Shown: positions 29,703 through 42,563 of the stretch, in pieces
How the letters are laid out: each line of letters starts with the position of its first letter
Position numbering within the stretch: position 1 is the stretch's first letter
Source of the DNA: Paenibacillus xylanexedens
GTDB taxonomy: Bacteria > Bacillota > Bacilli > Paenibacillales > Paenibacillaceae
Direction of reading: 5' to 3'
NCBI RefSeq assembly: GCF_001908275.1
Contig: NZ_CP018620.1
Coordinates: 1,178,001 to 1,242,000 of the forward strand
Length of the DNA: 64,000 nt
The notes under the pieces: model-generated
Databases searched by the model: none
What the model was told of the DNA's origin: nothing
What the model saw: the letters and a program-made list of their open reading frames with translations, nothing else
Translations under genes and position numbers: made by a program

Positions 29703-29756
29703 TGTGCTTATCATATAAATTCAAAATTATGGATTTTCATTGTGGAGGTGGGATAC

Positions 29757-31151
29757 ATGGAACCTACAACTACGATACGCTCATATATTGAGGACTACAT
29801 CAGGAAACAGGGGTACACCCTGCAGTATTTTGCCGATATATCGGGAGTTAACGCTGGAACGCTTAGCGCAATTATTAAGGGGACTCGGCCCATCGCTATG
29901 GCGCAACTGGATCTGATTACCCAAGGCATGAAGCTGGAAGAGGGGTATTTCTACGAGATTTATGGGGCTGAATGTTTCGTGGAATCGGCACCTCATTGGA
30001 GGAGACTGGAACCATTCCTGCAACGTTGTGCTGAATTGGACAAGCTGGAATGTATTCATAAGGTTATCCAGGAAGTGACGGATGATCGCTCGTATATCTC
30101 GGAGTTGTTTGAGATGGCGGAAGGCATGCTTGAACGTGGACAGACGAAGGCTGCACGGATGTTGTACGAATGTGTGGCGGAGTGTGAGAAATATCAACAC
30201 TCGGAACGTCTGGCTCTGTGCCAGTATCGCATCTTCACGTTATCTCTCGGTCAGAATCAACATGATAACCTGCGGGCCGCTGTGCATTTTGAGCCATATA
30301 TTAATCGGCTGGATGAGGAACGGCAACTGGATGCGATTAAGGATTTGGCGAATACGTACTCCGCACTTCGCTATTGGGACAAGTTGTTCGCGCTTGCAGA
30401 TGAATTGGGACATAAAGCGGAAATTATTCAATCGTATACTAAGAAAAAAGTTATTAAAGAAAATAGGATTACAGCGTACCCTTTATTTGTATACAGAGCT
30501 TATTCGAATTTGCTTAAAAGCAGTGCATGTGAGTGGAGAGAGATGTATAACGATGCACTGGAATATACAAATAATTATGCTTCTTTGGTTAAGATACCCA
30601 ATCCTGATGATGAAGAAATGATATATATCAATATGTTCAACAGATGGGCAGAGGTTAATACTCAATTGTATAAACTGATGATGGGAAAGACAGAGGTTCT
30701 CCCGGAATATATAGCTTGGATTGAGCAGAATGAAGAGGAGACACTTACTGGTCTTGTTAAAATTATAGAAGCAGCAAATAAGTACGACTTGGATATAGAT
30801 TATGTTATTTCTAAATTTGATATTTCCATTAATTCTATGTTGAATGATAGAACTTTATCAGAAGGATACAATGAACAAATGAAAAACAATCTGTACTCAA
30901 AACTCTTATTTGAGTTGGCAATGTATTATTTTAAAAGAGAACGATACATGGAAGGAATACACAAGCTTGTCACCTGTTTGAGTTCAGCCATCAAGATTAA
31001 TAATTCTAATGACATAATACAATGTGTTGCTCTCTTTGAAAGGTATAGGTCTTTTGCATCTAAAGAAATAGAAGGTATCTATTATAATCTAATGGAGGAG
31101 GCTTATAGTTATTATGAAATCAAAAAAAATCATAGCTATACTTTTGTTTAG
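29757..31151 (+). CDS. HTH/TPR regulator 1, RRNPP quorum-sensing type (AloR-like)
   Basis: A 464-residue cytoplasmic regulator. Residues 1-70 form an XRE-like HTH (YTLQYFADISGVNAGTLSAI, then KGTRPIAMAQLDLI); the rest is a helical repeat domain with TPR-like pairs (SAPHWRRLEPFLQRCAELDK, ARMLYECVAECEKYQHSER). This plan matches RRNPP receptors (Rap, NprR, PlcR, AimR) and the AloR family described in Paenibacillus, which bind a re-imported peptide. GAGGTGGGATAC precedes the ATG at 29757. A 41-codon propeptide gene overlaps its 3' end. The first ~675 bp look GC-balanced while the rest is AT-rich, suggesting a mosaic origin. Confidence 0.82.
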   Translation: MEPTTTIRSYIEDYIRKQGYTLQYFADISGVNAGTLSAIIKGTRPIAMAQLDLITQGMKLEEGYFYEIYGAECFVESAPHWRRLEPFLQRCAELDKLECIHKVIQEVTDDRSYISELFEMAEGMLERGQTKAARMLYECVAECEKYQHSERLALCQYRIFTLSLGQNQHDNLRAAVHFEPYINRLDEERQLDAIKDLANTYSALRYWDKLFALADELGHKAEIIQSYTKKKVIKENRITAYPLFVYRAYSNLLKSSACEWREMYNDALEYTNNYASLVKIPNPDDEEMIYINMFNRWAEVNTQLYKLMMGKTEVLPEYIAWIEQNEEETLTGLVKIIEAANKYDLDIDYVISKFDISINSMLNDRTLSEGYNEQMKNNLYSKLLFELAMYYFKRERYMEGIHKLVTCLSSAIKINNSNDIIQCVALFERYRSFASKEIEGIYYNLMEEAYSYYEIKKNHSYTFV

Positions 31152-31239
31152 TGCTATTATTGTTAGTTTTCCCACTATACTAATTAATGTACAAGATCAA
31201 ATCTATAGTCTGCTAGCACATGGTGATGGAATGTTGTAA
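31114..31239 (+). CDS. Candidate signalling propeptide (Phr/AloP-like)
   Basis: A 41-codon frame overlapping the last 38 bp of regulator 1 in another frame, preceded by GGAGGAGG (12-bp spacing). The product has the layout of Phr/PapR/AimP/AloP precursors: Lys-rich start MKSKKI, hydrophobic export core IAILLFSAIIVSFPTILI, then a short hydrophilic tail whose end is LLAHGDGML. The mature peptide would come from this C-terminal part after secretion and proteolysis, be imported by an oligopeptide permease and bind regulator 1. The 3' overlap with the receptor gene and a terminator right after it are typical of such pairs. Maturation site unknown. Confidence 0.72.
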   Translation: MKSKKIIAILLFSAIIVSFPTILINVQDQIYSLLAHGDGML

Positions 31240-31402: not shown

Positions 31403-32773
31403 GTGGAATCGGTACCTACAATAAGAGTACATATTGAGAAATTCATGAGAGAACAAAATCTCAAGTTGCAGCATTTTTCCGACATTACAGGAATTAATGT
31501 TGGGACTTTAAGTGCCATTCTTAAAGGTAGCAGACCGATGTCTATGAACCAACTGAATCAGATCACTTCTGTTATGGGATTAGAGAAAGGGTATTTTTAT
31601 GAGAGTTATGGGGTTGAATCCTTCATAGAATCTTCGCCCCACTGGAGACGTTTGGAGCCATATCTATATGAGTGTGCTGAGCTTTGTAAGCTGGATTGTA
31701 TACAACAAGTCATCACTCATGTAACGGACGATCGATCATATATAGAAGAATTATTTGATGTAGCTGAAAGCTTTTTTGCTAGAGGATTAAAAGAAGTAGC
31801 TCTTATTTTGTATGAATGTGTGGCAGACAGTGAAAAATATCAACACTCCGAGCGGTTGGCCTTATGCCAGTACCGTATTTTTCTGCTTCATAAAACACTG
31901 AATAAATTCAATAACTTAAATGCCGCAGTAAAATTTGAACCTTTTATCGAAAAATTGAATGAGGAAGTACAACTGGATGCGATTAAAGATTTAGCTAATT
32001 TGTATGGCGCGATAAATCTATGGGATAAGGTTTTTGAACTGGCTAATGAATTGATTCAAAGAACTGAATTCCAAGTTCAACTTCAATCTATGAGACGGAA
32101 CAGAAAACCAAGAATAGCCTCTTATCCTCTATTTACTTATAAAGCTTATGCTAATCTGCTCATGGCAAATGTATCTGAAGAACGTAAGCAATATATGAAA
32201 GCTTTGGAGTACACAGATGTTTATGAGGATATTATGGATGGGATTAAAAATCCAACAGAGGAAGAGCAAGAATTGATAGATCGATTCAAGGGCTGGGCTG
32301 AGGGCAATCGATATTTGTACAAAATACTATCAGGTGACTTCGAAGGCTTAAACCGTTATTTGAATTACCTAGATGTTAATCTTGCCGAAATTTTAACAGC
32401 ACTCGCCTATATTATACAGGCGGCAAATCAGTACTCTTTTAATATTGACCATGCATTAAATAGATTCCAAAATCACATTGATCAAATTAAAGCGGAAAGA
32501 CATGTAAAAGGAATATATAACGAACAGGCATCAAATTTTAGATATATACGCTTATTCTACGAACTAGCAAAATACAGATTGAAACAGAATCAAATTGAAC
32601 AGGGAATAGAACATCTAATTACTAGCTTGGAACGTTCATCTTCATGTAATGAAGATCTAATGTGTATCAAATGCATTGATTTGTACGGAAAATACAGAAA
32701 TTCCGCTAGTAAGATCCAGGAAGAACAGTATACAAAACTAATAGATAAGTTAAGTGTACCAACTTTTCGATAG
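31403..32773 (+). CDS. HTH/TPR regulator 2 (AloR-like paralogue)
   Basis: A 456-residue paralogue of regulator 1 with the same HTH (LKLQHFSDITGINVGTLSAI, KGSRPMSMNQLNQI) and helical repeat domain (SSPHWRRLEPYLYECAELCK, SEKYQHSERLALCQYRIF). It begins with GTG at 31403, 7 bp after GGAGG. It is AT-rich throughout. Unlike regulator 1, no propeptide gene follows; only 20 bp separate it from the next paralogue. It may respond to the paralogue 1 peptide, to a peptide encoded elsewhere, or to none. Confidence 0.82.
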   Translation: MESVPTIRVHIEKFMREQNLKLQHFSDITGINVGTLSAILKGSRPMSMNQLNQITSVMGLEKGYFYESYGVESFIESSPHWRRLEPYLYECAELCKLDCIQQVITHVTDDRSYIEELFDVAESFFARGLKEVALILYECVADSEKYQHSERLALCQYRIFLLHKTLNKFNNLNAAVKFEPFIEKLNEEVQLDAIKDLANLYGAINLWDKVFELANELIQRTEFQVQLQSMRRNRKPRIASYPLFTYKAYANLLMANVSEERKQYMKALEYTDVYEDIMDGIKNPTEEEQELIDRFKGWAEGNRYLYKILSGDFEGLNRYLNYLDVNLAEILTALAYIIQAANQYSFNIDHALNRFQNHIDQIKAERHVKGIYNEQASNFRYIRLFYELAKYRLKQNQIEQGIEHLITSLERSSSCNEDLMCIKCIDLYGKYRNSASKIQEEQYTKLIDKLSVPTFR

Positions 32774-32793: not shown

Positions 32794-34157
32794 ATGAAGA
32801 CAATGTCCGATATACGTTCCTATATTGAAAGTCACTTGAAGAATAAGGGATATAAACTACAGCAAGTTTCAGAAATGGCTGACATTAATGTGGGTACGTT
32901 AAGTGCTATCATCAGAGGAACCAGACTTATGTCAATGAATCAACTAGACCAAATCACATCAGCAATGGGTTTGGAACAGGGGTACTTTTATGAAATGTAT
33001 GGAGTTGAATGTTTTATTGAATCTGCGCCCCATTGGAGGCGATTAGAACCGTATTTATTTCGTTGTGCTGAACTTGGTAAGCTAGATATTATACAACAAG
33101 TCATTACTCATGTAACAGATGATCAATCCTATATTGATGAGTTATTTAATGTGGCAGAGAGTCTCTATAATAAAAGCACCAATGAATCTGCACTCATTAT
33201 ATATGAATGTGTGGCCGGTAGTGAGAAGTATCAACACTCGGAGCGGTTGGCCCTTTGCCAGTACCGCATTTTCTTGCTTCATAAAACACTGAGTAAATTT
33301 GACAATCTCAATGCAGCAGTAAAGTTCGAACCTTATATTGATAAATTAAATGAAGAAGTGCAATTGGATGCAATTAAAGACTTGGCTAACGTGTATATGA
33401 CGATACATTTGTGGGACAAGGTCGACACATGGGCACGGGAACTGGAACGGAAAGCAGAATTCCAATTAAAAATTCAATCTCGTAGGCGAAAAAATAAAAG
33501 AAGGCTAACAGCCTATCCTCTTTTTACATATGTAGCCTATGCACACTTATTAATAGCAAGCGTTTATGATGCCCGTAAGGAATATGAAAATGTCCTAAAG
33601 TATACAGAAAAATACTTGGAAATAGTTGAGCTTGGGAATCCTACACAAGAGGATCAACAAATAATAGATTTGTTCCGAGTATGGGGGAAGGGAATCAATA
33701 TGCCTCCCAATTAATGCTTGGTCAAGAAAATGTAATCGATTCTTATTTGGATTATATCGAAAACAACCCGTCAGAAATATTAGCTGGATTCGTTAATATT
33801 TTGCAAGCAGCTAATCAGTATTCTTTTAACATTGACTTTGCTTTAGATAGATTTAAGAACCAGATCAAATTGTTTAATACAGACATGCACTTTAAAGGTG
33901 GTTATAACGATCAAATGTTAAACCACGGGTATCAAGATTTTTACTATGAATTGGGATATTATCAAATAAAACAACGTAATTACTTACTTGGGATTGATGC
34001 CTTACTCATGTGTTTAGAACTCTCTTCTTCAAGTAAAGATGACCTGATGTGTATTAAATGTTTAGATTTGTACGGGGAGTATAGGAGCGAAGCCAATGAA
34101 AAACAGATCAGAAATTACAAAAATGTAGTAGAAAAGTTAAGTTTGCCGACTTTTTGA
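32794..34157 (+). pseudogene. HTH/TPR regulator 3 (AloR-like), broken by a frameshift
   Basis: Two overlapping frames together make one paralogue of regulators 1, 2 and 4. Frame one (32794-33714) gives the HTH and most repeats, then runs off as VWGKGINMPPN and stops. The second frame, open from 33681, continues as EGNQYASQLMLGQENVIDSY and aligns with the paralogues to the end (VEKLSLPTF). One extra G in the G5 run at 33683-33687 restores a continuous VWGEGNQYASQ. The break is either a real loss or phase-variable one-base deletion, or a homopolymer sequencing error. The 306-residue truncated product would keep its DNA-binding domain but lose part of the peptide-binding repeats. Confidence 0.8.
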
Positions 34158-34181: not shown

Positions 34182-35522
34182 ATGAAGAAGATGCACAATA
34201 TACGTTCCTATTTTGATAGATACTTGAAAGACAATGGGTATAAACTACAGCAGTTTTCAGAAATTGTTGACATTAACGTGGGTACATTAAGTGCTATCAT
34301 CAGAGGAACCAGACTTATTTCAATGAACCAACTAGACCGGATTACCTCTGCAATGGGTTTGGAACAGGGGTGCTTTTATGATATGTATGGTATGGAATAT
34401 TTTATTGAATCTGCACCCCATTGGAGACGCTTAGAACCGTTTATATATCGTTGTGCTGAGCTTGGCAAGCTGGATGTTATTCAACAAGTCATTACTCATG
34501 TGACAGATGATCATTCATACATTGATGAGTTGTTTGAAATAGCTGAAGAATTGTATAACAAAGGAATGAAGCAGGCAGCACTTATTCTGTATGAATGTGT
34601 GTCTGAATGCGAAAAATATCAGCACTCTGAACGGTTGGCTATGTGCCAATATCGTATATTTCTTATTAGTATAAATTTAAAAAAGTTTGATAACCTTAAT
34701 GCAGCAATTCGTTTAGAGGTTTATGTAGAGAAGCTCAATGAAGAATTACAATTGGATGCGATTAAGGAACTGGCTAATGTATATAGTACAATGGATTTAT
34801 GGGAAAAGGTTTATTCATTGGCAGAAAAATTAGAAAGAAAATCGGATGCATTATTAAGATTTAAGTCTCGAGCAGAGGCTAAACGTATTACGGCTTATCC
34901 TTTAATTACTTACAAAGCTTATGCGAATCTGTTAAAGGCAAGTGTGTTTAAAGCACGTAAAGAATATGCAGTGGCTTTAAAATATACAGATATTTATGAG
35001 AGAGTAGTTGATATTTCTGGTCCATCAGAAGAAGAAGGGGTTATGATAGCCAAATTTAAGAGATGGGCTCAAGGAAATCGTATAACTATTAATTTAATGT
35101 CTGGAAATCAAGAATTTATACATGAGTATCTTAATTACCTGGAAGCTTACTCTGAGGAAACGTTAACTGCCTTTATTAATATTATTGAAGTTGCTAATGA
35201 ACAATCTCTTAAAATTGAGTTTGATTTAGAAGAATATGAAGACAAAATCAAGCGATTTTATTTAGATAGAGGGTGCAATTCACGAATTATAACTCATAGA
35301 TATATGTTGTTTAATTATGAACTTGCAAAGTATAAATGCAATCGACAAGATTACCAAAACGGTATAGATATAATACTTTATATTTTATCTCTTTCAACTT
35401 TGAACCAAGACGATCACATGACAGTAAAATGCGTTGATTTATACGGAACTTACAGACAGCAAGCTAGTTTGTCCCAGCAAGAGACGTATTCACAATTATT
35501 TAAGACGATAAATATTAAATAA
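34182..35522 (+). CDS. HTH/TPR regulator 4 (AloR-like paralogue)
   Basis: A 446-residue paralogue with HTH YKLQQFSEIVDINVGTLSAI and RGTRLISMNQLDRI, and repeat motifs SAPHWRRLEPFIYRCAELGK and CEKYQHSERLAMCQYRIF. Two Mets in the first four codons are possible starts; GGAAGGGACG is upstream. It lies 24 bp after paralogue 3 and is the last gene of the array, closed by a terminator. No propeptide gene follows. C-terminal repeats diverge more from the others than the N-terminal half, as expected for different peptide specificity. Confidence 0.82.
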   Translation: MKKMHNIRSYFDRYLKDNGYKLQQFSEIVDINVGTLSAIIRGTRLISMNQLDRITSAMGLEQGCFYDMYGMEYFIESAPHWRRLEPFIYRCAELGKLDVIQQVITHVTDDHSYIDELFEIAEELYNKGMKQAALILYECVSECEKYQHSERLAMCQYRIFLISINLKKFDNLNAAIRLEVYVEKLNEELQLDAIKELANVYSTMDLWEKVYSLAEKLERKSDALLRFKSRAEAKRITAYPLITYKAYANLLKASVFKARKEYAVALKYTDIYERVVDISGPSEEEGVMIAKFKRWAQGNRITINLMSGNQEFIHEYLNYLEAYSEETLTAFINIIEVANEQSLKIEFDLEEYEDKIKRFYLDRGCNSRIITHRYMLFNYELAKYKCNRQDYQNGIDIILYILSLSTLNQDDHMTVKCVDLYGTYRQQASLSQQETYSQLFKTINIK

Positions 35523-35525
35523 AAC

Positions 35526-35562
35526 AAACAGCCTATCTGCTTTTGAGGTAGGCTGTTTTGTA
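35526..35562 (+). terminator. Terminator of the regulator 2-4 operon
   Basis: AAACAGCCTA pairs with TAGGCTGTTT around a 13-nt loop, right after the regulator 4 stop. Confidence 0.88.
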
Positions 35563-35725: not shown

Positions 35726-35899
35726 ATGAGAGAACGGAGTATCTTGAAAGACCAAATCGAGCAAGGTCGGCAAGAGTTGAGTCGCTTGGTAGATCAATAT
35801 GGAATCCCGAATGTGAAAGTGCTTGAGCAGTCTATGGCGTTGGACGAGCTAATTAATGAATATAATCGATTTACTCTAGGTGTAAATATGAGGAAATGA
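35726..35899 (+). CDS. Spo0E-like aspartyl-phosphate phosphatase, copy 1
   Basis: A 57-residue two-helix protein of the Spo0E family. Helix 1 is LKDQIEQGRQELSRLVDQYG; helix 2 carries the signature SMALDELINEYNRF, equivalent to SQELD-LI--Y of Spo0E, whose Asp is needed to dephosphorylate Spo0A~P and so delay sporulation. ATG at 35726 after AGAGGGG. A second member at 42375-42563 shares the upstream sequence (GAGGGG.....CATGCT) and the protein sequence. The two copies bracket the RiPP cluster. Confidence 0.85.
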   Translation: MRERSILKDQIEQGRQELSRLVDQYGIPNVKVLEQSMALDELINEYNRFTLGVNMRK

Positions 35900-36081: not shown

Positions 36082-36297
36082 ATGGGAGCAAGTAAACCTG
36101 GTAAAGGCAGTACAAAATATCCCGAGTTGACTAGCGGGGATTTCGGTGTTGGAGCAATCAGATTTCAAAACCCCCCAAATACAGGCGGGGGAACAGGGAA
36201 CACCGGTAGCTGTGGTGTTAATGTAAGTTGTGTACTTTGCTGTTGTTGTGGCAAAGGTGGTGGAGCGGATAATGTACAAAAACAAATTGAACTATAG
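36082..36297 (+). CDS. RiPP precursor peptide with Cys-rich core
   Basis: A 71-residue peptide with a strong ribosome site (AAGGAGGTGAGCAT). Leader about 1-33 (MGASKPGKGSTKYPELTSGD, ending RFQNPPN); a Gly-rich spacer TGGGTGNTG; a core SCGVNVSCVLCCCCG (residues 43-57) with six Cys, two of them after Ser; then GKGGG and a follower ADNVQKQIEL. Cys and Ser/Thr clusters are the substrates of azoline-forming YcaO enzymes, two of which are encoded downstream. I do not recognise a named family. The core is bordered by glycines on both sides, as in microcin B17-type substrates. Cleavage sites are unknown. Confidence 0.82.
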   Translation: MGASKPGKGSTKYPELTSGDFGVGAIRFQNPPNTGGGTGNTGSCGVNVSCVLCCCCGKGGGADNVQKQIEL

Positions 36298-36400
36298 GAC
36301 TTTTTTTGATTCCCAATAATTATATTGATTCGAGTGCGGCAATATGCGTATTTAGGATATTAGCCGCACTTGAAGTTTAAAGCGGAGGTGTCATATCATT

Positions 36401-37294
36401 TTGATTACAGAAGAGTACACTACGTACACATTGAATAACTTTGTTATCTATGAAATAAACTCAAATGAACTAGTTTTAATGCATAACTATGGGATAGTGA
36501 AAATAAAAGAAGCAAGATTAATAGAAGAAATAAAGAAATGGGATAACAATAATATTAAATCAGTCCATGAGAAAGAACTTATGGATGTTTTTCAAGAAGA
36601 CTATTCAAATGCTATATCCTTTTTAGAGAATAATTACATCTTCATTACTAAAGAAGAGGTGAACTTCTCAATAGAAAAATGCGTTTTCTTAAGTAATAAT
36701 GATGAAATACTTAAAGTGTCCCGAGAGTTTCTTTTTGAGAACCAAAATATGAAAAATTCAATTATAAATCTTAATGAAGAATCAAATAGCACACTACTAT
36801 CAGAGAAGAATAGTAATACTTTATATGTAGTGTTTATGAATCCTTACAGTAAAGAAATAGCCAGTAAGATTACTTCACTTGTAAGAAGGAGTGAGAACTC
36901 AATTTTATTGATGAGCTACACATACAACAACAACTTTTATATTGATTCTCTTTATAGCCCTCAAGCATCTAATCCATGTCATTTTTGCCACATAGGTCAC
37001 ATTGAATCACAATTGCGTGTAGATTCTACTGGGAATATCTCTTATCAGCAAATTATCGATTCGATTTATAAAGATGAACCCAAATTCAAGGTTCATACTC
37101 CTCTAAACAAAAATAATATTTTGAATATACTCTCGTTATTAAGTAATAAAATAAGTAAATATTTCACCTTAGAAAATGGTAGAATAATCCATAATGAAGA
37201 GTTACATGAATGTTCCGTATTTGATCTTCAAACAAATAATTACTATACAGATTATTCATTACATTGGGAGCTATGTGACTGCTATGAAAAATAA
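36401..37294 (+). CDS. McbB-like (E1/Ocin-ThiF-like) azoline-synthesis partner protein
   Basis: A 297-residue protein starting with TTG at 36401 after GCGGAGGTG. The N-terminal ~85 residues resemble the winged-helix peptide-binding (RRE) region of E1-like RiPP proteins, and the C-terminal part has four cysteines suited to structural zinc: C193 and C196 in NPCHFCHIGH, and C292 and C294 in LCDCYEK. McbB-type proteins bind the precursor leader and deliver it to the YcaO cyclodehydratase. No ATP-binding E1 loop is visible, as in McbB. Identification rests on the zinc pattern, size and cluster context. It overlaps the dehydrogenase gene by 11 bp. Confidence 0.7.
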   Translation: MITEEYTTYTLNNFVIYEINSNELVLMHNYGIVKIKEARLIEEIKKWDNNNIKSVHEKELMDVFQEDYSNAISFLENNYIFITKEEVNFSIEKCVFLSNNDEILKVSREFLFENQNMKNSIINLNEESNSTLLSEKNSNTLYVVFMNPYSKEIASKITSLVRRSENSILLMSYTYNNNFYIDSLYSPQASNPCHFCHIGHIESQLRVDSTGNISYQQIIDSIYKDEPKFKVHTPLNKNNILNILSLLSNKISKYFTLENGRIIHNEELHECSVFDLQTNNYYTDYSLHWELCDCYEK

Positions 37295-38114
37295 GTATGT
37301 TGGAAGTCTAGAACATAACACAGTGGAAAGGTCATTCACTGATTACATTTACGCTTCTTATATACCAAAGAAAGTTGAGAACTATATTCTTAAATTTCAT
37401 CAAAGCAGTACTTTGCTAAAGTTGCCTGATTCCAAGCACCAATCCATCGATGATAACGTAATTCCATGGCTTGAATATGCGCAGTACACAGATATCACTC
37501 CTGATTATTACGAACAGAAAATTAATCTTAATACAAGCACAGAAGTGAATGTAATCGGAAGTTACAGATCATTTAACAAAGAGAGACTGTTCAATTTTGC
37601 AGAGTTATCCCAATTATTAAATGATGCTTTTATAAGAGATAAACAAACGGGGTCTAAAAAATATGGTTCTGCTGGTGCTCTCTATCCCATAGTTCCGTTG
37701 GTACTCGTGTTCCAAGATCATGATACTTTGACAAGAGGAGTTTACGTATATGATGGGATAGAACAATCATTGTTAAAAATAACGTCTTGGGCCAAAGACG
37801 AAGCACTTCATATTAAGAAGTATGTCTGTCATGATGCAATAGATCTACCGGAAATTTGTATCGCATATGCAGCAGACTTACGCAGATCAATAATCAAATA
37901 TCATATCAGAGGGTACAGACATGCTCTAATAGAGGTAGGAGCCATGAGCCAAGTGTTTAAAAATTCTCTCCATAAAATGAGTAAAGGTGTCGGAGAGGTA
38001 AGTTGGTCTGGATTCAATGATAACGAACTGACTAAGCGATGTGGTCTTAATGTGAGATTGTGTCCAATAGTAATGCTTCAATGGTTTGGATACACGGATT
38101 CAACAGGAAAATGA
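37284..38114 (+). CDS. SagB-type FMN-dependent azoline dehydrogenase
   Basis: A 276-residue nitroreductase-fold protein. The FMN/phosphate signature of the SagB/ThcOx/McbC group is present as KKYGSAGALYPIVPLVLVF, followed by RGVYVYDGIEQSLLKI and GYRHALIEVGAMSQ. These enzymes oxidise thiazolines/oxazolines to aromatic thiazoles/oxazoles. I start it at the ATG at 37284; the open frame begins earlier, inside the previous gene. Catalytic Lys/Tyr pair not assigned with confidence. It lies between the McbB-like gene and the first YcaO gene, the B-C-D set of a linear azol(in)e peptide cluster. Confidence 0.85.
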   Translation: MKNKYVGSLEHNTVERSFTDYIYASYIPKKVENYILKFHQSSTLLKLPDSKHQSIDDNVIPWLEYAQYTDITPDYYEQKINLNTSTEVNVIGSYRSFNKERLFNFAELSQLLNDAFIRDKQTGSKKYGSAGALYPIVPLVLVFQDHDTLTRGVYVYDGIEQSLLKITSWAKDEALHIKKYVCHDAIDLPEICIAYAADLRRSIIKYHIRGYRHALIEVGAMSQVFKNSLHKMSKGVGEVSWSGFNDNELTKRCGLNVRLCPIVMLQWFGYTDSTGK

Positions 38115-38124
38115 GGTCGATATC

Positions 38125-39165
38125 ATGTTGTATTTATCAAATCCTCTTCACTTTAATATACCGGAGCAAAAATTTATTACTGACGACACATACACATCCT
38201 TCTCAAGAATTGGGAACTTTCTTAAAAATGGTTATATAGGGCCGGATAGTTCCACTGCAATAGATTTTAATAAGCAACAGTCTCTAATCAAAGCTTTTTC
38301 AGAAATGATCGAGAGAAGGGCAATATCTGCCGGGGGCATCCCTTTTGATGAGAAGAGTGTATATGCTATTAATATGGTTAATTCAAGTAGTGTACTTATT
38401 GATAAGAAATACTCAACGTATTCATTATCAGAAGAATTCCCAATTGATACTACCGGAACCTCTAGTCATATTTCGTCACAAAAAGCAATTGTTAGTTCTC
38501 TCCGAGAAATTATTGAAAAAAATGCCTTGTATCTATTTTGGTATGGTAAACAAGGCTCTAAAATTAAACTAGATGTATCTCTGATAAACAAACATAAAAT
38601 TTTATCTGGATTAATGTATCAAAAAAATAAAGAAGTTCTTTTTTTTATCAATGAATATTTCTATCCCTTAAAGGTAGTATTTTGTTTTATTCTTCACAAA
38701 AATTTCGTGTGCTCTTCTGGGGTGGGTAGCTCTTTTTCCATTGAAGAGGCTATCCTTAAATCCACACAAGAAGCCGTTTTATTACAGTGGAAAGAAGAAA
38801 GTAATGAACTCGTTGCTATGTCACGCCAAGTGTTCAAGAAAAAATATGAAAATCAATCTGGGATTATTGATTACTTATCTGTAGGGTACGGAAGTATCTC
38901 AACTAGTGATTATGAAAAAACGATGAAAGAATTAACAATTTCCAATTTGTTGAATATACTTCCTGCTTGGGTGGCTGAGGTATATATGATTCCGCTAAAA
39001 CAAACGGTAACTACAAAAATTAAATGTATAAAAATATACTCTCCTTATCTTTTTAATCATATTCCTTTAAAAGAGTACATTAACCTAAGAAACCCTATGA
39101 ATGTAAATACGATAAATCTTAACGAGCAAAGCATGCTGAAAATACCTAACTGTATTGTAGTGTGA
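38125..39165 (+). CDS. YcaO-domain cyclodehydratase 1
   Basis: A 346-residue YcaO protein. ATP/Mg-binding motifs: SLIKAFSEMIERRAIS (S53, E60, E63, R64), SSHISSQKAIVSSLREIIEKNA (E128, E131) and SSFSIEEAILKSTQEAVLLQW (E216). YcaO enzymes activate backbone amides with ATP to form azolines (or thioamides, amidines). In the second motif the common ER is EK (E131-K132). It lacks the Pro-rich PxPxP tail of many azoline-forming YcaOs, ending IPNCIVV. ATG at 38125 after GAGGTCGATATC, 10 bp behind the dehydrogenase stop. No TfuA partner is encoded, so azoline formation is more likely than thioamidation. Confidence 0.88.
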   Translation: MLYLSNPLHFNIPEQKFITDDTYTSFSRIGNFLKNGYIGPDSSTAIDFNKQQSLIKAFSEMIERRAISAGGIPFDEKSVYAINMVNSSSVLIDKKYSTYSLSEEFPIDTTGTSSHISSQKAIVSSLREIIEKNALYLFWYGKQGSKIKLDVSLINKHKILSGLMYQKNKEVLFFINEYFYPLKVVFCFILHKNFVCSSGVGSSFSIEEAILKSTQEAVLLQWKEESNELVAMSRQVFKKKYENQSGIIDYLSVGYGSISTSDYEKTMKELTISNLLNILPAWVAEVYMIPLKQTVTTKIKCIKIYSPYLFNHIPLKEYINLRNPMNVNTINLNEQSMLKIPNCIVV

Positions 39166-39183
39166 TAGAGAGGAGAATACGCT

Positions 39184-40284
39184 TTGATAAATAATCCAGT
39201 TAACGGCACACCTTTTATGATTGAAAGGTTTCATATCAAACAAAATTCATTTCTCCTTGACTATTTTCAGAGTGATGTTATTACGTATTCTGAGAATGGC
39301 CCGCCTGCAAGCGCAATTGATTTTGATAAAAGAAAATCAATTAAAGCAGCAATAGGAGAGCATATAGAGAGGGTATCTGTTTTTAACAATTATCATAGAT
39401 TCAGGGATCAATCAGTAGAGGGAGTCAACATGCTGAATGGTACAATAGAACAATTCCCTCTACATCGTATTTTGTTGAATTGGAATGATCCTATACTAAA
39501 AAAAGTAAATCTTGATAATATATATAGCGATACCTGCGGAATGGCCTCTCATGTTAGTTCCCATCAGTCTATAAATTCTGCATTTTTAGAATTCTTTGAA
39601 AGACAAAGCTTGCTCTTTAGTTGGTTCACTAAATCTCCTGCTAAAAAGATTCATCTTGAAGATATAAAATTTATAAATCTTCAATCCATTATCCAGATGT
39701 CTCGGATACATGTAGATGAGATTTTTATGTACGATATATCGTTGTGTGATGAGGTCAAGGTAGTAATTACAATCGCCTTTGGAGCAAAAACTAAAGGTGT
39801 TGGGATAAGTGCTGATTGGGACTACCAAGGTGCAATAACAGGCAGTTTAAAAGAGCTATTCCAATATGTAACTGTGGAGCAGCCTATAAAAAAATCAAAT
39901 TATCAAAATACGGAATACTCAGTTGATCCATTACTTTACTCTCATTATTTTATGGAGAGACTTGGTGTAGATGAATTAAAAAGCGAGTTTCAATACCTGG
40001 AGAAATCAGATCAAGTGCGTGGTGAACTAATAGATGGAGACAAAGCTGATCCTAATGAATTTTATAATACAGTTAAGAAAATCTCTTTAAAATTGGCAAT
40101 GGATTTTAATCTTTGTTATATACCAGCTCTTGATGGAGAGTTAAATACAAAAATTGTTAAAATTATAACAAATAAAGGCTTCCATCACATGTATGCTGCA
40201 AAAATAGACCCAACTCAAGTCGAAATCTTGAAGCCTTATAAGAATCGATTACACAATATTGGGAAAATGCTCCCGTTTGGATAA
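39184..40284 (+). CDS. YcaO-domain cyclodehydratase 2
   Basis: A second, clearly different YcaO of 366 residues, TTG start at 39184 after AGAGGAGAATACGCT. Motifs: SIKAAIGEHIERVSVF (S52, E59, E62, R63), SSHQSINSAFLEFFERQSLLF (E136, E139, R140) and the third region GAITGSLKELFQYVTVEQ. The C-terminus HNIGKMLPFG resembles the H-x-x-P-x-PF end of canonical YcaO cyclodehydratases more than YcaO 1 does. Two non-identical YcaO genes with one E1-like partner suggest a heteromeric enzyme or two successive modifications (for example Cys and Ser/Thr cyclisation). Confidence 0.88.
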   Translation: MINNPVNGTPFMIERFHIKQNSFLLDYFQSDVITYSENGPPASAIDFDKRKSIKAAIGEHIERVSVFNNYHRFRDQSVEGVNMLNGTIEQFPLHRILLNWNDPILKKVNLDNIYSDTCGMASHVSSHQSINSAFLEFFERQSLLFSWFTKSPAKKIHLEDIKFINLQSIIQMSRIHVDEIFMYDISLCDEVKVVITIAFGAKTKGVGISADWDYQGAITGSLKELFQYVTVEQPIKKSNYQNTEYSVDPLLYSHYFMERLGVDELKSEFQYLEKSDQVRGELIDGDKADPNEFYNTVKKISLKLAMDFNLCYIPALDGELNTKIVKIITNKGFHHMYAAKIDPTQVEILKPYKNRLHNIGKMLPFG

Positions 40285-40299
40285 ATTGGAGGTTGTTTT

Positions 40300-41061
40300 T
40301 TGAAAATAACTCGTGAATACTTCCGTCTGTTTACTAAAATGATGTTAAGCAACAAAGTAGCTTTCGTATGGTATCTGTTATTTCCCCTCATTGCTTTTTT
40401 TATCTTTAATTATCAATGGTTTACTCAGGGGCCTGAGATCAATGAATTTTACATCCAAACCAGTGTATTTGTTTCATATATTATCTTCGTGATGTCCATC
40501 GATGTGACGACCAATCTGATCTCTTTAAGAGAGAGCGGTTTTTTCAAGATGTTTAAATTTATCTCGGGTAGTAAATACCCTATTATCTGGGGAAAGGCTC
40601 TGAACCAGATTGGTTTTCTGTTTTTGACCATTCTTCTGTTCTCGCTAGTATCGGGAGTGATATTCCTGGATAGCTTTGGACAGGTTGCTTTGTTTCTCGT
40701 CGTGTCTTTAACAAGCTGTATATTGGGGTCTGTAATGGTCATTTTTTTAACGCTTATCCTCATGCTTCTTCCAGTAAGGCAGGAGTCGCTGAATGCGGTG
40801 GTCAGTATGAGTTTACTGGTCATGTTTTTTCTATCTGCAAAGGGACTGGCGTATTCAACAGAGTATGGTCTACTTCTGGTGTTCATCAACCCTATGGAGT
40901 ACGTTAGGAATCTAACTTTTTTATTAGCAGAATGGTTTATGAATAGCCCTTTCCCACATTTGAGTCTGATCAACATGAGCCTCATCACACTTTGTTATGT
41001 TACCTGCGGACTTATCGCACTCAAATTTGTGAAAGTCATATCCAGAACACATCGGACATAG
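40300..41061 (+). CDS. ABC-2-type permease of the RiPP exporter
   Basis: A 253-residue membrane protein with six predicted helices: residues about 20-38 (VAFVWYLLFPLIAFFIFNY), 53-70, 100-125, 130-160, 165-185 and 222-242. TTG start at 40300 with GGAGG 7 bp upstream. Next to the ABC ATPase gene, with which it forms a two-component exporter, the usual route and often the self-protection device for azol(in)e peptides. These two transport genes look less AT-rich than the modification genes before them. Confidence 0.82.
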   Translation: MKITREYFRLFTKMMLSNKVAFVWYLLFPLIAFFIFNYQWFTQGPEINEFYIQTSVFVSYIIFVMSIDVTTNLISLRESGFFKMFKFISGSKYPIIWGKALNQIGFLFLTILLFSLVSGVIFLDSFGQVALFLVVSLTSCILGSVMVIFLTLILMLLPVRQESLNAVVSMSLLVMFFLSAKGLAYSTEYGLLLVFINPMEYVRNLTFLLAEWFMNSPFPHLSLINMSLITLCYVTCGLIALKFVKVISRTHRT

Positions 41062-41072
41062 CAGGAGGATCT

Positions 41073-41780
41073 ATGATTAAAATTGAAAATTTGAGCTTTT
41101 CTTATCCCAAAGCCTCTCGTCAAAATCTGGATCATTTACATGTGGAGTTTCCCGAACAGACCGTGAATATGATTATTGGCAAAAATGGTTCTGGCAAAAC
41201 GACTTTATTTGATCTGATCGCGAATGTGATTAAACGTCCACCAGAAATACAAGGTATTCCGGATGAGAAGGAGATCATCTACCAGCTGCAGGGTTTGTTA
41301 TTTCCTCTAACTTTGAAGGCCAAAGATCTCTTTCGCTTTTTCCTGTATTCCGATCACTCTAACCGCATTGAAGTGAACAACGAACCTTATGTAGATGAAG
41401 ATATGAGTCTTGCAGAGGTTGAATTGGTACAGCGGGTATGGCATATGGAGTTTGGGCAATTATCTGTTGGGGAGAGGCGTTATCTGTGTATTCTGGCAAT
41501 CACATTAATGAAGAGGAAATTATACATCTTTGACGAGCCATTAGCGGGTATCGATCCGGAAATGCGTTATCATATTTTGAAAAGGATTGAGAAGCTGGCA
41601 CTCCATAATGAGTGCACTGTACTGGTCTCGAACCATCACTTGCAGGATATTGCAAATATCCAGTGTGTTCTGCATTTTATTCATCAAGGTAAAATAACCT
41701 TTAGCGGATCATATGAGACGTTTATTAAAATGGGAGATGGAGTGAATCCGGACTTGGCGTTTCTGAAGCAGGTGAAGTGA
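41073..41780 (+). CDS. ABC transporter ATP-binding protein of the RiPP exporter
   Basis: A 235-residue ATPase: Walker A GKNGSGKTT (about 34-42), Q-loop YQLQGLLFPL, signature LSVGERRYL, Walker B KLYIFDEPLAGIDPE and H-loop VSNHH. The signature has V in place of the usual G (LSGG). ATG at 41073 with GCAGGAGGATCT. It pairs with the permease and is the last gene of the RiPP operon. A small GGAGA/TCTCC hairpin with a T-rich tail just after the stop (about 41781-41804) may be a weak terminator. Confidence 0.88.
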   Translation: MIKIENLSFSYPKASRQNLDHLHVEFPEQTVNMIIGKNGSGKTTLFDLIANVIKRPPEIQGIPDEKEIIYQLQGLLFPLTLKAKDLFRFFLYSDHSNRIEVNNEPYVDEDMSLAEVELVQRVWHMEFGQLSVGERRYLCILAITLMKRKLYIFDEPLAGIDPEMRYHILKRIEKLALHNECTVLVSNHHLQDIANIQCVLHFIHQGKITFSGSYETFIKMGDGVNPDLAFLKQVK

Positions 41781-41879
41781 GGAGAGGTGTTTCTCCATTT
41801 TTGCCACGTCCCTTCTACTCCAAAACTGAGCGACAATAATTACCAGTAAAGAGCTAACTTATGCAACAAACTGTGCTAA

Positions 41880-42116: not shown

Positions 42117-42374
42117 AGGCATCACCTCCTTTGCAGGAGACTAGCCGACCACCCATATTAGCCATTCTGTTGATATGAGGCTGTTTCTTCAAAGGGGAAA
42201 TGGCACCAATCCTGAATTAGCTTTTTTTTGAAGCAGGTAAAATAGGGAGATATAAATTAATATAAGATTTATGAAAACTGATTTTGCAAACAATCATTTT
42301 ATTCTGCAAAGGAATATAATATGAATTTTTTGGCAATGTATCCTAAAATGTTATACAAAGAGGGGGTGCATGCT

Positions 42375-42563
42375 GTGAGTGAACCGATACAGATCACAGA
42401 TAAAATCGAACGGAACAGGCAAGAGTTGAGTCGTTTGGCGGAGAATCATGGCATGCAGGACAACCAAGTCCTCCGACAGTCCATGGTACTGGACGAGCTT
42501 ATTAATGAATATAATCGATTCAAATATAAAAGCCATCTCAGGAACAGACAACCGATTGCATAA
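42375..42563 (+). CDS. Spo0E-like aspartyl-phosphate phosphatase, copy 2
   Basis: A 62-residue Spo0E-family protein with helix 1 IERNRQELSRLAENHGMQ and helix 2 SMVLDELINEYNRFKYK, the Asp-containing signature shared with copy 1 at 35726. I choose the GTG at 42375 because AGAGGGGGTGCATGCT before it matches the leader of copy 1; an upstream ATG at 42321 would add 18 residues. Such phosphatases drain the sporulation phosphorelay. Its stop lies inside a terminator hairpin. Confidence 0.85.
   Translation: MSEPIQITDKIERNRQELSRLAENHGMQDNQVLRQSMVLDELINEYNRFKYKSHLRNRQPIA

Follow-up and report, generated by a model that had tools for sequence, protein, structure and literature searches.

Microcin B17 of E. 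coli is encoded by the operon mcbABCDEFG (record L036; a Rahnella relative is L038), in which a precursor gene is followed by genes for an McbB protein of family TIGR04424, a SagB-type dehydrogenase, a single YcaO protein (McbD), a permease and an ATP-binding cassette (ABC) ATPase, and then by a pentapeptide-repeat gene. We describe here an operon with the same A-B-C-D-E-F order in which the D gene is doubled (A-B-C-D1-D2-E-F). It lies at positions 36082-41780 of a 64,000-nucleotide stretch (the window) of the 7.1 Mb genome of Paenibacillus xylanexedens (contig NZ_CP018620.1, positions 1,178,001 to 1,242,000 of the forward strand), and we refer to the products of its two D genes as YcaO-A and YcaO-B.

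Azolines, amidines, and thioamides are the reported products of YcaO enzymes (PMC7136475), one of which is also reported to cleave a peptide bond (PMC10885120). The closest described clusters with two YcaOs are the lactazolicins, predicted in Lactobacillus, Enterococcus, and Streptococcus, whose second YcaO, D1, lacks the C-terminal PxP (Travin 2020, PMC7136475). Like the window, they pair D1 with a D2 protein, McbB-type and SagB-type partners, and an exporter. They also have genes X1 and X2, for which the window operon has no room: its dehydrogenase gene directly follows and overlaps that for McbB, unlike in the lactazolicins, which are described from lactic acid bacteria, and the later gaps are 10-18 bp. 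Their precursors are 83-106 residues long with 8-12 Cxxx repeats (PMC7136475), whereas that of the window has 71 residues and the core SCGVNVSCVLCCCCG. Two YcaOs per cluster are also found in the coryneazolisins (Cox 2015, PMC4603692), but there one is fused to a C protein and lanthipeptide-like dehydratases are present. In sulfomycin biosynthesis, two distinct YcaOs, SulC and SulD, act on one peptide, but in a thiopeptide pathway with several other partners (PMC10634744). MusD of the muscoride pathway is a YcaO with the additional ability to cleave off a C-terminal piece, using ATP; it is a 784-residue chain with an ExxER motif and belongs to a cyanobactin pathway (PMC10885120). The phazolicin-type linear azol(in)e-containing peptides (L039) share with the window the McbB family, the dehydrogenase, an McbD-type YcaO, and the leader FG motif, but have a single YcaO, which lacks a PFP end.

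A predicted microcin-B17-type operon with two D genes

An earlier note on this DNA had described an azol(in)e-type operon for a ribosomally synthesized, modified peptide, with two different YcaO enzymes. We recovered all seven of its genes, each of them open and on the + strand:

36082-36297, + strand: precursor of 71 residues, consisting of a leader with FGVG, a Gly-rich spacer, the core, and the tail GGGADNVQKQIEL
36401-37294, + strand: McbB-type scaffold with a four-Cys zinc pattern; start TTG; NCBIfam TIGR04424, E 2.4e-68
37284-38114, + strand: SagB/McbC-type dehydrogenase; start ATG; KYHIRGYR; aligned with McbC
38125-39165, + strand: YcaO-A, divergent; start ATG; ExxEKN; C terminus IPNCIVV; like lactazolicin D1
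39184-40284, + strand: YcaO-B, McbD-like; start TTG; ExxERQ; C terminus LPFG; like lactazolicin D2
40300-41061, + strand: ABC permease in the place of McbE; start TTG; conserved in position in relatives
41073-41780, + strand: ABC ATPase in the place of McbF; ABC_tran, E 6.5e-14; open reading frame (ORF) from 40992, likely start ATG at 41073

The four-Cys McbB-like protein of the earlier note scores 230.9 bits against TIGR04424 (cut-off 65; E. coli McbB, 288.6 bits) and matches the solved McbB at E 2.6e-7, and its Cys residues 193, 196, 292, and 294 are invariant in 20 aligned proteins (out of 46 hits). The assignment of the SagB-type dehydrogenase also holds, although its scores fall below the model cut-offs (TIGR03605, 67.8 bits against 78.4; Pfam Nitroreductase, 20 bits against 23.5): it contains the KY...GYR stretch of McbC. 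The KY motif of SagB/McbC dehydrogenases is catalytic, and it is kept in 23 of 27 aligned rows, the exceptions being the copies beside YcaO-A in L024 and L054, the L056 protein, and the doubtful X1 of the Enterococcus locus L011. For the permease, Pfam and NCBIfam scans gave no family match above cut-off; a profile built on it scores McbE at 42.5 bits. The two YcaOs are unfused and unequal (346 and 366 residues); they match PF02624 at E 6.5e-10 and 5.3e-11, respectively, and the top solved chain for both is McbD, weakly for YcaO-A (E 0.0024) and clearly for YcaO-B (E 5.4e-8).

The precursor gene is preceded by the ribosome site AGGAGGTG. The earlier note did not recognize the substrate, which appears instead to be a distant McbA-like peptide, recognizable by its leader FG motif, Gly-rich spacer, and Cys core. 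The FG motif occurs in 26 of 28 precursors from loci with YcaO-A, and also in McbA and in the Rahnella, phazolicin-type, and L034 precursors. Cxx and Cxxx repeats are both absent from the core of the window precursor.

The gene-level features of the microcin B17 type are found side by side in the window: an McbB with zinc Cys residues, a KY dehydrogenase, a YcaO-B with ExxER and a PF-type end, and an adjoining FG-leader precursor with a Cys/Ser core. Further marks of this type are azoles in the mature peptide and gyrase as its target. Leader motif, spacer, permease, and ATPase are further points of likeness to microcin B17. The window differs from it in having a second YcaO, a different core, and a Lys in the precursor tail, and the pentapeptide-repeat model has no match among the ten window proteins scanned. 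As judged from its genes, 36082-41780 is a microcin-B17-type azol(in)e peptide operon, a Gram-positive relative with two D genes, and it appears to hold all the genes needed for a small, ring-modified and probably antibacterial peptide. Of the two options left by the earlier note, a type not yet described or a variant, the second therefore stands; the mcbABCDEF gene order, together with the second YcaO in what is described of the lactazolicins (PMC7136475), argues against a wholly new type.

Occurrence of the YcaO pair

We searched genome and plasmid collections with TIGR04424 alone, so that a second YcaO was not built into the sample. The genome samples, which overlap, gave matches in 4 of 75 genomes of the genus, 3/99 relatives, and 7/295, 7/397, 8/398, and 2/398 genomes of the family, order, class, and phylum samples, as well as in 4/39 genomes of the family of G683, 1/38 of the family of G552, and 3/19 of the genus of G916; the distinct matches are 20 genomes. 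Six plasmid records also matched, and a search of the plasmid collection with YcaO-A found just these six. We read 25 Bacillota loci, namely every one of the 20 from genomes plus five distinct ones from plasmids. Four entries were dropped before counting: L004 and L005 (records of L022 and L020), L012 (the operon of L010), and L037 (no McbB). The near-copies L020, L022, and L028 are included in the 25 loci and in the 24 YcaO-A and 22 YcaO-B sequences, but not in the trees and the Mantel test.

Both YcaOs are present at 22 of the 25 loci, counting L033, in which the YcaO-B gene is split over two ORFs. YcaO-B stands alone at one locus (L034, within the 19 kb read) and YcaO-A at two, of which L025 is cut by the contig end and L054 lies beside an IS66-like element. 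Each of the three McbB loci read from Proteobacteria has a single YcaO. The pair extends to the family of the window, to Geobacillus and Cytobacillus plasmids, and to other genomes of the class. Among the open-licence full texts in PubMed Central that we consulted (subscription journals were outside the scope), the lactazolicins are the sole McbB-type clusters with a second YcaO, and no described function for that protein was found; two YcaOs are also mentioned in PMC10352776, PMC8442711, PMC5103208, and PMC5719810, which lie outside this set. In these papers we found none of three points made here, namely the pair beyond lactic acid bacteria, the fixed ExxEKN with intact Glu residues in D1, and the clues to its role.

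The Enterococcus locus L011 fits the lactazolicins, with a 92-residue precursor, nine Cys at Cxxx spacing, and two extra ORFs; full membership of the window in that group was rejected, since X1, X2, and the Cxxx repeats are all absent. That X1 itself (L011, 9755-10495) might be a decayed SagB is no more than a lead (HHalign probability 7.6%, E 0.0046), and its N-terminal likeness is the end of McbB read in another frame. X2 compared with McbB gave an HHalign probability of 0.2%.

Candidate precursors were found at 24 of the 25 loci, with none at L054. Many of their cores contain both Cys and Ser/Thr; that of L056 has nine Cys in a row, and those of L051 and L052 are minimal, with one Cys each. 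Four precursor copies lie in one locus at L053 (6768-8461) and two at L023 (10011-10470). Among the 75 genomes of the genus, we did not see the precursor kept without the enzymes, the case that the earlier note had set against its own reading: three of them have it, and each of the three has an McbB gene.

Relatives with broken or missing parts (L033, with its split YcaO-B gene; L037; and L054) might suggest that the operon is silent or decaying and that the doubled YcaO has no function here. We regard this as very improbable, given that the seven window genes are all open and that two other Paenibacillus genomes carry the same gene set with McbB proteins 96% and 97% identical to that of the window.

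YcaO-A forms a clade of its own

In trees, YcaO-A and YcaO-B form distinct, co-inherited clades. YcaO-B falls on the McbD side and has the ExxER motif, with a PFG end in the window. All 24 YcaO-A sequences have ExxEKN and retain the five conserved Glu residues; the PFP end is absent, and a C-terminal Cys is usual. A YcaO-A profile reaches McbD at E 3.5e-13 and MusD weakly, at E 7.4e-4.

Co-inheritance, the missing PFP end, and the change from R to K would also be expected if YcaO-A were mainly structural, taking the place of one McbD subunit in a heteromeric complex and activating or positioning YcaO-B; the McbB, McbC, and McbD proteins are described as forming a 4:2:2 complex (PMC10634744). 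We consider this unlikely. A dead partner would not need the five Glu residues that every YcaO-A retains, L034 has YcaO-B without YcaO-A in the 19 kb read, and L054 has YcaO-A without YcaO-B, although the latter adjoins the insertion element.

In the initial profile comparison, the second YcaO of L011 had a marginally higher score as A (202.4) than as B (196.9), although its motif and its place in the tree make it B. The phazolicin-type YcaO, read from its ORF, lacks a PFP end; this end is therefore no sure mark of function, and we slightly lowered our estimates both for a separate YcaO-A class and for the tail peptidase considered below.

Clues to the role of YcaO-A

L024 holds two gene sets, one McbB-SagB-YcaO-B and the other McbB-SagB-YcaO-A; a set of the latter kind is present in L054. 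The dehydrogenases beside YcaO-A in these loci have VDG in place of KY, whereas the copy on the YcaO-B side of L024 keeps KY, which points to a YcaO-A product that escapes oxidation. The sole SagB-like gene found in the two-YcaO locus L056 (8295-8966) also lacks the KY motif, and the product of that locus may stay unoxidised.

A second clue lies in the precursors, which at loci with YcaO-A end in a short GGA...K tail. The pattern [GCS]G[ASV], 2-12 residues, K, within the last 30 residues, is present in 27 of 28 precursors from 23 YcaO-A loci (0.25 expected per shuffled sequence; the precursor of the truncated locus L025 is among the 28) vs 1 of 4 from single-YcaO loci (0.12 expected), with the pattern set after looking and near-copies counted. 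At L034, which has no YcaO-A, the precursor stops at SLGGGK without a C-terminal tail; the YcaO-B of this locus groups as sister to the one of L009, where YcaO-A and the tail are both present. A point against giving the tail this weight is that our first test (G, then A/S/V near the end) was positive for 23/23 precursors from YcaO-A loci, yet also for 4/4 from single-YcaO loci.

These data could mean that the Gly-Gly-Ala tail is the site of action of YcaO-A, as an ATP-dependent peptidase or some other enzyme of C-terminal processing, for which the removal of a C-terminal Gly-Val by MusD (PMC10885120) would be the precedent. We think this improbable. The pattern is post hoc and includes near-copies, the loss at L034 is a single independent event, the simpler test did not discriminate, a phazolicin-type precursor matches the pattern in the absence of any YcaO-A, and the motif of MusD is ExxER rather than ExxEK.

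A third clue bears on a division of labor by residue, in which one YcaO would convert Cys to thiazolines and the other Ser/Thr to oxazolines, with both kinds of ring oxidised. Sulfomycin, in which the azole work is shared by two YcaOs (PMC10634744, citing Du 2020), and the many cores with both kinds of residue make this a possibility to be taken seriously, although the odds are against it. In the L007 precursor (read from L032), the stretch CYCCCIVYACGG has no Ser/Thr despite the presence of both YcaOs; Ser/Thr residues are confined to the positions just before the Cys stretch (MDSTRN) and to the tail, which counts against a simple split of this kind. In L034, moreover, a core of mixed Cys and Ser is served by YcaO-B alone.

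In the reading that we favor, with a probability of about 0.5, a linear azol(in)e peptide is the product of an McbBCD-type complex, and the same peptide undergoes a second ATP-dependent backbone reaction catalysed by YcaO-A. McbB would bind the leader FGxG motif, YcaO-B would cyclise the Cys (and Ser/Thr) residues of the core with ATP, and SagB would oxidise the rings. YcaO-A would dock to the same McbB-type scaffold for a second ATP-dependent attack on the backbone, perhaps at the Gly-Gly-Ala...Lys tail, with a product that is left unoxidised. The leader would be removed by a protease encoded outside the operon, and the permease and ATPase would export the peptide and protect the producer. 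McbE and McbF serve in export and producer protection, and McbE is annotated as an immunity protein in the microcin B17 record. A bolder, and doubtful, extension would make YcaO-A (ExxEKN, no PFP end, usual C-terminal Cys) the founder of a functional class of its own, at work in many genera of Bacilli, whose backbone reaction, for instance ATP-driven cleavage or capping of the peptide at its Gly-Gly-Ala tail, is not yet described for McbB-type complexes. With an McbD-like YcaO beside it at most Bacillota McbB loci and its own fixed change in the second ExxER motif, YcaO-A is a well-defined starting point in the search for a further YcaO reaction, and the minimal one-Cys precursors, together with the solved McbBCD structure, allow its role to be tested directly.

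Microcin B17 is trimmed by TldD/PmbA (PMC10885120), which had no match in the genome of the window. Pitrilysin-type protease genes occur in L007 and L009 (annotated) and in L033 and L034 (by the motif HFIEHLL), and L008 carries a different putative zinc protease (annotated); the window operon has neither kind of gene.

Other identities considered

A thioamide system of the TfuA type was rejected, as none of the ten proteins scanned from the window matched TfuA, a search that did not extend to the rest of the genome; the earlier note had likewise seen no TfuA partner for the second YcaO. Heterocycloanthracin, described with a fused E1-YcaO, an Ocin-ThiF protein, and Cxx repeats (PMC10634744, PMC7136475), does not fit, since the window YcaOs are separate and the repeats are missing. 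A defence system was rejected as well, since PADLOC returned no hit at E 0.1 for McbB, SagB, or either YcaO; one helix-turn-helix (HTH) protein of the regulator array described below matches its 'control protein' model at 8.6e-4. A phage origin was also rejected: at 1e-5 the phage collection yielded no match to McbB, and none was confirmed in viral contigs.

Expression signals and flanking genes

The spacing that the earlier note had given for the whole operon, overlaps or gaps of 10-20 bp, applies from McbB onward: McbB and SagB overlap by 11 bp, and subsequent gaps are 10, 18, 15, and 11 bp (ATG starts assumed at 37284, 38125, and 41073). It does not apply to the gap between precursor and McbB genes, which is 103 bp long and contains a hairpin. 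Of 15 loci tried, 14 have a folding energy of -17.9 kcal/mol or lower for this gap (no shuffles), vs just -6.5 in L034. The hairpin probably allows excess production of the precursor. Terminator-like consensus sites, of which the window has 9 (3.6 expected), lie on both sides of the operon, and an array of HTH regulator genes lies upstream:

29742-31151, 31403-32773, 32794-33714 with 33681-34157, and 34182-35522, + strand: four tandem HTH regulator genes, with two overlapping ORFs making up the third
35526-35558: terminator-like site before the operon (consensus scan)
36329-36374, + strand: hairpin between the precursor and mcbB genes (z -2.96; 1 of 200 shuffles equally good)
41781-41796, + strand: terminator-like hairpin closing the operon (consensus scan only)

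HTH arrays also precede the same operon in L020 and L022, and the array possibly controls it. HTH_3 matches, at 2e-4 and just below the cut-off, were obtained for the two array proteins scanned with Pfam, and the rest were assigned by mutual similarity; a search with an HTH protein found no related solved structure, the two rubrerythrin rows being at E 0.8. The size and HTH end of the array proteins suggest that they may be peptide-sensing regulators. A secreted-looking ORF of 41 residues (31114-31239), which overlaps the end of the first regulator gene and ends in AHGDGML, is a possible pheromone precursor; similar ORFs in L020 and L022 end in SAHGIGQI and ITHGEGKL.

GC content is 33-39% across 30-42 kb and 44-51% in the rest of the window, which suggests that this stretch was acquired. 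On an Enterococcus plasmid (L037, 7780-10334), a remnant with YcaO-B-like pieces, a permease, and an ATPase, and with no McbB found, lies beside an IS6 transposase gene. Small Spo0E-like ORFs flank the window operon at 35726-35899 (Pfam SpoOE-like, 8.5e-12) and 42321-42563 (by resemblance only).

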